A stretch of DNA of 64,000 nt from Lucifuga dentata (taxonomy: Eukaryota; Chordata; Actinopteri; Ophidiiformes; Bythitidae). Of this stretch, positions 52,001-63,963 are shown piece after piece. Position 1 is the stretch's first letter, and the number at the start of each line of letters is the position of its first letter. The stretch is taken from positions 1 through 64,000 of the forward strand of contig VXCM01000905.1 in NCBI GenBank assembly GCA_014773175.1, read 5' to 3'. The position numbers and the translations under genes are program-made. The notes below the pieces were generated by a model. The model saw only the letters and a list, made by a program, of their open reading frames with translations. It was not told where the DNA came from and did no database searches.

Positions 52001-55000
52001 GTGGAGGGGTGAAACCCAGTACTATGGTAAGAATGGAAGGACTCCTCCATCTCTGAACCTCCAGTGCTGTGTCCAGTCTCACTCAGTTGAGAGCTGGCCT
52101 GGCTCAGGTTTCCTGATGATCCAAAGCGACTACTTTCCACTGGGCTAGATTAGGGAGCGAGGAGTGAGGAAAACATTCAGTATTAGAATCCTTGAAATGC
52201 TTTTTTGAGATAGAACTTCACAAAACACAATTTTTAAAAAATATATTTTGTAGTTTATATTTTCCCTGCGAGGAATAGCTAGATGAGTGGGGGCTGTCAG
52301 ATAGGGGGAAAAAAAAAATCATTTAATTCTTTTTGGTTGATTTATTGGCAATTTTTGGATTTCATTAAACTCCACTCATCTACTATTTGTAGATAATACA
52401 AGTGCTAAGTACTAATTATTTGCAAAAATATTTGACAAAGGTCTATTTAAAATATCAATAACTTCTAAAGAACCACACGAGTTCTTCACTTGCTATGTCA
52501 TACACACACTGTGGTATATTCATAAAAGGTACTCAACCTTATAGGGAGGATGTTGCATGTTGAAGAATAATGAAAATCTGAAAAAGTTTAACTCTTTTTT
52601 GATGTGCATTATACATGACATATGCATTTTCAAATAATAATAATAGCACATGTAACAGTATGCCCTTTTTGTGGTGTGAAGTATAAAATCCTTGAAAACA
52701 TCTCTGTATATTTCATTGTCAGTTTTACTTTGGCATGTCCATAAAGTAATCAGAACATCCACAAAGTCTATACTGTTAAACAATGATCAGTGAGTGTATA
52801 GAGATGTATGATACATGGACAGTAACATATCCAGTGGTGATATGTGTCTTTGAAAATTTAGTTTTATAAACTGGCATTTTTTTATGCAGAGCATGTAGTT
52901 GGATCAACTAAATCTATAAAGTCTGAGTTCTTCTTTTTTACTTGGTTAAATGGAAAGAATTTAAATGTACAAAAAATAGTTTGATGTGGATGAACAGATG
53001 TAGAGTAACAAATCATACAAATAATACACAACACAGACAAATCAGAATTCCGTGCTCAAACAAAATTTACATTATTTGTAAGTTGTTTAAGACGGTAGTG
53101 TTTAAATTTGATCCTATGAACTTATCATACTCCATAGGAAACTAAATTTTTCAACAGAATTACTGAAACTTTTGCTGACCACATTAGTTGTTTTGTGAGT
53201 GCAGACATGTAAGCACTATAATGAAAATGAAGATCAGTGAGAACTTCAGGCAAATGCTGTGTCCATAAATTTGTTACTGTCAGAGGATTAACATACAACA
53301 GTATCATATCTCTCAAGTTCTTTTACCAAGTCGACATATATTATACAAATTTTGAGCATGGAATTCTGTTTTGGAATAATATAGGTTAAATTACATAAAT
53401 CCTACACATAAAAAAATTGTGTTATTTGTTTTATGTGTAGGATTTATATAATAGCACACACACAAAGACAAACATACGCTCAAGCAAGATTAAACTGAAC
53501 TCCTAGGGAAGGACTGCAGAACTGGACAGGGAATTCTCTTTATCAAAATGTCAATGCATCATAAATGGTTGGGGATTGCCATTTATTATGCTTTTACTAG
53601 CCTTTTTGCATTCAACAGATCCTTCTTGAACTGGCTGTCCAGCTGCACTCCAGAGGTGGGACCTGCAGAAGGGTGTGTTTCTACAAGCCTTTCCTTCTCC
53701 TTTGGTAACATGGATGCCGAAAGATCTACTTCAGGAGTGGAGATGCAAATCACAGGGTTTTGTACTTCATCTGTGGAACCTACCATTTCAATTTTTTGGC
53801 CACCAGATGTTGCACCCATTTCTACATTTTGCATTTGTCTGCTTGTTGGCTTGTCATTGGGTTTGGGTTGAGATATTACAACTGCAGCAGCTTGTGGTTT
53901 GGGTGGCTCTGTTTGCCATGGGAAACTTAACTTTGTCCCAAACAATGAAGGGGTGGTTGATTCTTGCTTTCCAACAACAGGTCTTTCCTCTTGAAATAGA
54001 CCTCCAGATAGTGTTTTGAATCCTGAAAACAGACCTCCTTCTGTTTGAGGCTTTGAATGGGCACCTGAGGGCACAGTGGATGAAAACAGGGAACCAAGTG
54101 ATTTCCCTGCATCACTCTCTACTGATATGAAGCCAAACAGAGACTTGGCTTGAGATGGCTCTGTATTCTTGGGCAACTGATCAACTTGAGAAGCTTTCTG
54201 CATATTTGCTTTTTGGGTGTCCGATGAGACTAATCTGTCAGCATCTTTATTTGGAGGCTTTTCTTGAATGATCACAGGCCTCTCGTGCATCACCTCTCCT
54301 TCAATAGCTGTCTTTTCTTTTTCAGTATTATCCATCTGATAACTAAGATCACTTCTACCGCTTGGGGTAGTACATTTAACATCAGGGGTTTGTGGACAAG
54401 CTGACTTAGTGGCCTCTTCACCACTTCCTAGGCTGCCAGATTGCACTTCATCTTTATCTTGTGGTGTAGACTCAAAGATTCTATTTCCACTAGTCTCAGT
54501 AACACCTGAAGCTACTTTTGAAGCCACACTTTCATTCTTAATCTGTGGCTGTGCCATCGCACCAGGTGTTGCTTTGGGTTCAATAGCCTCTGATTCAGAT
54601 GGCTTAGGTACTTGTCCCATGCCCCCAAATAAAGATCCACCTATGCCCCCCCAGTATCGAAGCTCCAGTCTGTGATCCTGCAGTCTGAGCAGTGTCTCCA
54701 CCAAGCATTCCTCCCAGTAAAGAACTACCTGTCTGTACTGTTGCATTTGGGGCCACAGATCCTCCAAACATTCCACCCAGAAATGAACCACCAGTCTGTT
54801 GATCTGCAGACTTGGCAGTTGATGTTCCTCCAAACATACCACCTAACATTGATCCCCCAAAAGTAGAGGTGGTGGATTGTGGACCAGACTGAGAAGCAGA
54901 TCCCTTGAAGAAACCTCCTAGCAGTGATCCACCTGATTGAGAAGTCGTAGTCTGGGTGGGCCCCCCAAAATACCCTCTAATAATGATGATCCAGTCTGAG

Positions 55001-63963: not shown

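Follow-up and report, generated by a model that had tools for sequence, protein, structure and literature searches.

The window, that is the whole 64,000-nucleotide stretch of Lucifuga dentata DNA analysed here, carries on its minus strand exons of a Munc13-2 gene (unc13b). Among them is a giant coding exon of 10.36 kb (53602..63963, read from 63963 to 53602), located upstream of the exons for C1, C2B, MUN and C2C (18768..51724). The exon that follows the giant one occupies 51838..52144, minus strand, and starts behind the acceptor AG|CCCAGTG. As the reference for the exon map we employed P0001, an Unc13b model of 5,021 residues from Siniperca. In tblastn, residues 247-3677 of this model cover the giant block, and the core exons then follow in sequence as far as 18768, most of them with 80-100% identity to P0001. 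P0001 is also the best protein match of the arm encoded by the giant exon (whole query covered, 65%), and it carries C2, MUN and C1 Pfam domains. Together with several matching records named unc13bb, these matches identify the host gene as a percomorph-type unc13bb (Munc13-2). The C2A exons lie beyond position 64000, past the edge of the window, and C2A was seen in the models of relatives only. An 851-codon stop-to-stop ORF lies on the minus strand (43541-46093, 2.55 kb) downstream of the giant exon and ahead of the C1 exons, with no Pfam match in 43589-46093; by its position, we take it to be probably the first coding exon of the brain-type form (bMunc13-2). Open stretches on the minus strand at 500-12400 are P4-ATPase-like, presumably of the ATP8B type, and represent the next gene downstream of unc13b.

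The giant exon encodes about 3,450 residues, which are split over five ORFs in three frames. The initial annotation had described one minus-strand block of about 3,450 codons; its size, strand and place hold, but the single frame gives way to five ORFs with four breaks. The longest ORF comprises 2,258 codons, compared with a mean of 116 and a maximum of 200 in 300 base shuffles of the block, and its GC content by codon position is 0.51/0.50/0.29. The joined arm translation amounts to 3,459 residues, a few residues outside the splice sites included, and is rich in Ser (14.7%), Gln (9.4%), Pro (8.1%), Gly (8.0%) and Thr (8.0%). No Pfam family was detected at E<=0.1 in any of the five ORFs.

Both ends of the exon are in phase 2, with the acceptor AG|A at 63963 and the donor AAAAAG|GCTAGT, the last exon base of which is 53602; skipping of the exon would thus keep the frame. 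The donor is a GC-type 5' splice site (53593..53602, minus strand; exon ...AAAAAG|GCTAGTAAA intron) with an in-frame stop after KRLVKA, and its use yields the junction NAK|SPVESS, as in relatives. Of the two splice sites proposed at the outset the acceptor at 63963 stands, whereas the GT donor CTA|GTAAAA at 53598 had to be discarded, as with it the reading frame ends at codon five of the following exon. The K|S junction is present in 27 of the 30 fish models in which a downstream SPVESS-type pattern was found, the others reading LL|S (1) and NT|S (2). K|SPA or K|SPT occurs in four of five birds tried and in the one marsupial tried, and four placental models align to the same junction point.

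A search with the arm over 5.8 billion proteins gave 155 matches at E<=0.001, the best 120 of which were used. Searches with the central domain of the arm (see below) added 36 matches of 879 candidates when started from eel (bowfin, birds, a turtle and a frog included) and 93 of 1,422 candidates when started from turtle. The latter comprise turtles, birds, lizards, a snake, marsupials, sturgeon, gar, axolotl, primates, pig, bats and a seal; no row with a rodent name is among these 93. Homologous arms are hence found in records from sturgeon, gar, bowfin, teleosts, amphibians, turtles, birds, squamates, marsupials and placentals, and many of them are fused to a complete Munc13-2. Gene models that combine arm and core come from teleosts as well as from Terrapene, Aquila, Varanus, Anolis, Notamacropus, macaques, Pongo, pig, Rhinolophus and Mirounga, and the named non-teleost models have 4,145-4,664 residues, a few macaque fragments apart. 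Four rows cluster by similarity with the second teleost copy, for which we use the label unc13ba-like. The vertebrate search that the initial annotation had proposed, here run on proteins, thus recovered the arm from fish to placentals, in many cases fused to Munc13-2. Its huge Munc13-2 isoform finds a counterpart in gene models of relatives that join the arm to C2A and to C1-C2B-MUN-C2C, all of which are predicted models. From this distribution the exon is old and common to bony vertebrates, and from anatomy and homology together it is a real, ancient, giant alternative exon of Munc13-2. The literature searched, with most subscription papers and all preprints outside it, contained no paper on the exon. 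Going by the database records, the giant form is already present there as unremarked isoforms; human reference sets include an UNC13B product of more than 4,000 residues.

When the window was aligned with 12 proteins, two conserved islands emerged, at exon residues ~225-300 and ~1575-1725. The first (63069..63164, minus strand) is an acidic stretch of 32 residues that is probably helical. A relaxed pattern for it is matched by 201 of 229 rows, some of which are partial records. When rows are assigned to groups by similarity, the pattern is found in 119/131 bb-type teleost, 2/3 non-teleost ray-fin, 39/48 sauropsid, 2/2 amphibian and 39/41 mammal rows, and in 0/4 of the ba-type. The second island (58674..59333, minus strand, 220 codons shown) is a WW/Tyr-rich domain, predicted at low confidence to form a helix, a beta-meander and then further helices. 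It was detected by phmmer in all 232 collected proteins; the eel and turtle matches came from searches for this very domain, whereas the 120 arm-search rows did not. An alignment of 26 rows has 19 invariant columns, including W29, W30, P121 and D123. Weak Pfam matches of these 26 members are scattered over eight families (best E 0.02), and the window's own domain reaches 13.6 bits at best versus a cut-off of 28.4. Searching PDB by sequence gave best E values of 1.3 for the domain and 0.73 for the acidic helix, both of which we take as chance. The AlphaFold model of the domain has a mean pLDDT of 53.8, rising to 75-78 for the blocks that span residues 21-60, and fold searches with this weak model returned no reliable match. 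By these comparisons the second island is an undescribed domain. On the alignments, the parts of the arm kept across bony vertebrates are the acidic helix and the WW/Tyr-rich domain with a PxDLS motif.

This motif, PLDLS (58959..58973, minus strand), is of the CtBP type and falls into a low-confidence linker of the domain model, at block pLDDT values of 39-60. It was examined in 229 rows, i.e. the window plus 228 proteins, four of the 232 having been left out as their match was too short. P.[DN]L[ST] is present in 227 of them and PLDLS itself in 211; the two exceptions are PLDFS in a frog and PLDLC in a teleost. The rows are related rather than independent, since the 41 mammal rows are mostly from primates and include many isoforms (many of them from macaques); after thinning at 85% identity, 64 of 66 rows fit P.DL[ST]. 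Column entropies are 0.00 (P), 0.00 (D), 0.11 (L) and 0.23 bits (S), in comparison with 1.4-2.9 bits in the eight columns before the motif and 1.1-2.3 bits in the nine columns after it, save for an Ala at +2 (0.60 bits). In terms of constancy the motif columns rank 12-44 among the 220 of the domain. The x position varies (L, V, M, E, F), and changes of D to N and of S to T occur. Shuffles of the window arm contain 0.34 such motifs on average, under a pattern that also allows Arg at the end. A second PxDLS lies upstream, 134-145 residues away in the nine records printed. Counted with the ELM pattern, it is present in 92/92 sauropsid, mammal and non-teleost ray-fin rows and in 1/4 of the ba-type, compared with 22/131 bb-type rows, where other forms are found. 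With a terminal Ser or Thr it is present in neither of the two amphibians, the frog having PLDLR. Further DLS/DLR-like patches without the leading Pro occur at 58764-58778 and 60174-60203, and VIDLS-like forms recur in many relatives.

On the observed exon anatomy, homology, conservation and motif we base the following proposal, to which we assign a probability of about one half: the arm holds Munc13-2 on scaffolds of CtBP/RIBEYE, ribbon synapses in particular. In this reading the C2A-bearing (ubiquitous-type) Munc13-2 gene possesses an optional giant exon, common to bony vertebrates, that on translation would insert an arm of ~2,500-3,450 residues, by its composition mostly disordered, between C2A and C1-C2B-MUN. 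The working parts of the arm would be the short acidic helix and the small domain with the PxDLS motif. The motif is predicted to dock in the peptide cleft of CtBPs, in particular that of the CtBP2-derived B domain of RIBEYE, the principal protein of sensory synaptic ribbons. Docking would anchor the giant Munc13-2 to these ribbons or to other active zones with CtBP. The linkers would give reach, and the hydrophobic repeats may bind one another or vesicle membranes weakly, in a lineage-tuned manner.

The cleft of CtBP is reported to be bound by factors through a PLDLS motif (PMC9907507), and Bassoon and Piccolino bear PxDLS motifs for the B domain of RIBEYE (PMC11242772, PMC6539712). ubMunc13-2 is described as the Munc13 of photoreceptor ribbon synapses, and as the sole one reported there (PMC7660176). 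It resides at the ribbon base, and the photoreceptor RIM2 variant is stated to have no Munc13-interaction domain (PMC7660176, PMC11536687). In zebrafish hair cells expressed CtBP1 and B domain gather at the ribbon base, in photoreceptors CtBP1 is reported throughout the ribbon, and CtBPs are also present at ordinary presynapses (PMC4160224); a role of the arm therefore need not be specific to ribbons. Against the anchor, ubMunc13-2 is said to mark the arciform density/active-zone compartment and not the ribbon body (PMC4153300). Moreover, release in retinal neurons and hair cells is reported not to be impaired by a PxDLS-like peptide that binds RIBEYE, but the authors note that disruption by the peptide may have been incomplete (PMC7699581). 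Further points against it are the mild effect of Munc13-2 loss in photoreceptors, with the b-wave down about 30%, and the possible presence of some RIM1 there (both PMC11536687), as well as the reported ability of inner hair cells to work without Munc13 (PMC7660176). The accessible parts of papers matching both PxDLS and Munc13 drew no link between the two.

If the anchor holds, the conserved exon motif offers a concrete route by which Munc13-2 could be held at photoreceptor ribbons without the usual RIM contact. Work that clones or tags only the ~1,600-residue Munc13-2 would overlook the greater part of the molecule and leave arm variants uninterpreted. The giant form belongs to the same gene as ubMunc13-2, the C2A-bearing product of UNC13B, with C2A before and C1-C2B-MUN-C2C after the arm, but the arm is longer than the rest of the protein (P0001 without it has about 1,590 residues). 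It resembles bMunc13-2 in that the same gene gains a long N-terminal extension; the brain-type form uses a different exon, downstream of the giant one, and is devoid of C2A. Like Piccolo/Piccolino and Bassoon it would be a giant presynaptic protein with a PxDLS motif, which in those proteins serves RIBEYE and whose role here is predicted from sequence. In contrast to Piccolino and Bassoon, here it is the priming protein that carries the arm.

A more elaborate version adds a switch to the anchor. Inefficient splicing at the GC donor would give both the anchored giant Munc13-2 and an arm-only scaffold in the manner of Piccolino, the latter consisting of C2A plus arm, ending in KR(L/P)V... from the intron and lacking MUN. 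Introns of the GC-AG type make up ~1% of vertebrate introns. A read-through tail R(L/P)V is present in 95 of the 232 proteins, 73 with Leu and 22 with Pro, the pattern having fallen on a later RPV in P0187 and P0191. A Pro codon in the tail means that the second intron base is C and that the intron most simply begins in GC. Pro-type tails were found in eel, bowfin, sturgeon, axolotl, turtles, squamates, marsupials, a bat and some other fish, and in the lineages with such tails the GC donor appears to be old. For Leu-type tails the DNA was seen in the window alone, where it is GC. Judged by the read-through codons KR(L/P)V, the donor at 53593-53602 appears conserved from sturgeon and eel to marsupials. 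Among 97 models that start at C2A, 11 from fish, birds and squamates end in the read-through tail; these may be real arm-only products or prediction errors. Piccolino is reported to arise when an intron that contains an early in-frame stop is not spliced out (PMC3735604), and the GC donor here might likewise allow an intron-retained product. Since the tail-ending models may merely reflect gene prediction misled by the unusual donor and inefficient splicing is supposed, we regard the switch as tentative and rather unlikely. If true, it would also provide a RIM-independent route for Munc13 to ribbons.

Constancy of the motif might have another cause. In a normal isoform-specific arm, PLDLS could be a structural part of the undescribed folded domain, which would bind some other partner and not CtBP. 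In favour of this, P121 and D123 of the motif stand beside W29 and W30 among the 19 invariant columns, the WW/Tyr core is as constant as the motif, and the domain has no good Pfam match. Because the motif sits inside a conserved domain, part of its constancy could indeed be structural, which counts against the anchor. However, it is mostly flanked by variable columns, lies in a low-confidence stretch and has a variable x position, and the second, upstream PxDLS is kept in sauropsid, mammal and non-teleost ray-fin rows. We thus rate a purely structural motif as rather doubtful.

The arm also harbours short hydrophobic repeats, of which the initial annotation had recognised at least three families; all three exceed block-shuffle controls. 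Family 1, LSG(L/F)(L/F)K, has seven copies in Gln/Ser/Pro-rich linkers (60456..62035, minus strand; LSGLLK type, shuffle mean 0.00, maximum 1), and the LLSMF-type family 2 has eight (56184..57452, minus strand; 0.05, maximum 2). The third family forms two minus-strand GGxFGG arrays, 3a (55758..56138) and 3b (54697..54843), with 10 copies (0.04, maximum 1) and 6 of 9 spacings at 21-22 residues. The dozen or so GLFG-like units, 20-24 residues apart, that had been noted at first correspond to this family, but literal GLFG occurs only three times in the window arm (0.08, maximum 2). GLFG nucleoporins have short FG-containing repeats in Ser/Gln/Thr/Gly-rich linkers, and in this respect the arm is alike; it differs in the few literal copies, in arrays of the GGxFGG type that are missing from the tetrapods counted, and in having no Pfam family. 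GGxFGG is found 11 times in Siniperca, 11 times in Gadus and 17 times in Esox, 0-2 times in 11 other fish records and not once in each of nine tetrapod records (Ambystoma, Pyxicephalus, Chrysemys, Aquila, Anolis, Crotalus, Sarcophilus, Sus, Mirounga). The same nine contain no GLFG, 0-1 LSGLLK each and a single LLSMF altogether, in Ambystoma. From these counts the repeats look like lineage-tuned additions to an older arm. The arm of Esox lucius (P0095) has 17 literal GLFG versus three in the window, perhaps through independent expansion.

With arrays seen only in fish among the 23 records counted, a GLFG-driven condensate, as first suggested, was dropped as the main, conserved function. A wider reading sees the arm mainly as a multivalent polymer for sticking or tethering, whose repeats would self-associate in an FG-like manner or enter vesicle membranes, with the PxDLS domain secondary. 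The excess of the three families over block shuffles speaks for it, as do 11-residue windows of families 1 and 2, in which helical hydrophobic moments exceed those of their own shuffles by 1.6 and 1.9 s.d. on average. A precedent is the vesicle tethering by the Ser/Thr-rich ALPS motif of Piccolino, as reported in PMC13394108. The candidate counterpart in the arm of this N-terminal vesicle-binding motif consists of the short amphipathic windows only, and over 18 residues families 1 and 3 do not exceed shuffles in amphipathicity. As the arrays are moreover lineage-bound (in tetrapods family 2 is absent from 8/9 records, family 3 from 9/9, and family 1 is at 0-1), we consider a chiefly polymeric arm unlikely.

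The four apparent frame breaks of the minus-strand exon allow yet another view, compatible with the other readings, namely that the giant isoform is no longer needed in Lucifuga dentata and that the exon is decaying in this species only. The first break is a frame switch between adjoining homology segments (62885..62905, near 62895), the second lies at a run of six T (61665..61690, near 61675), the third at six G (54955..54970, near 54963) and the fourth at seven G (54640..54655, near 54648). Four breaks in 10.4 kb, with none evident in the 43541-46093 ORF or the mapped core exons, would fit a dying pseudo-exon. Yet three of the four are in homopolymers, and the assembly of the window contains nine single-N joins, two of them between flanks that are exact duplicates (66 and 62 bp). 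Homology runs on across every break (successive segment identities 78, 65, 65, 70 and 60%). Identities of the window arm to three outgroups, Esox, Salmo and Gadus, are 0.472, 0.498 and 0.521, inside the ranges of 11 other percomorphs (0.430-0.520, 0.447-0.548 and 0.458-0.554). In relatives, the acidic-helix pattern and a loose, permissive WW/WY pattern stand in one polypeptide in 202 of 232 proteins. Because relatives read the arm through and the window arm evolves at normal speed, assembly errors are the likeliest explanation of the four breaks, and given the normal divergence decay of the exon is unlikely.

Finally, some arm records are named mucin-2-like, futsch-like or uncharacterised, and recognisable previous-exon sequence was found in 0/61 unannotated contig ORFs, many of which start inside the exon and are hence uninformative, so that no spliced transcript was seen; still, a gene of its own, or a chance annotation of an unspliced open frame, is practically ruled out by the in-phase splice sites at both exon ends and by the core fusion in many models, with the K|S junction in 27/30 from fish. 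As for the assembly, the duplicated 66 and 62 bp flanks are at 1801-1935 and 18215-18341, around the Ns at 1868 and 18277, where contig ends were joined without merging.
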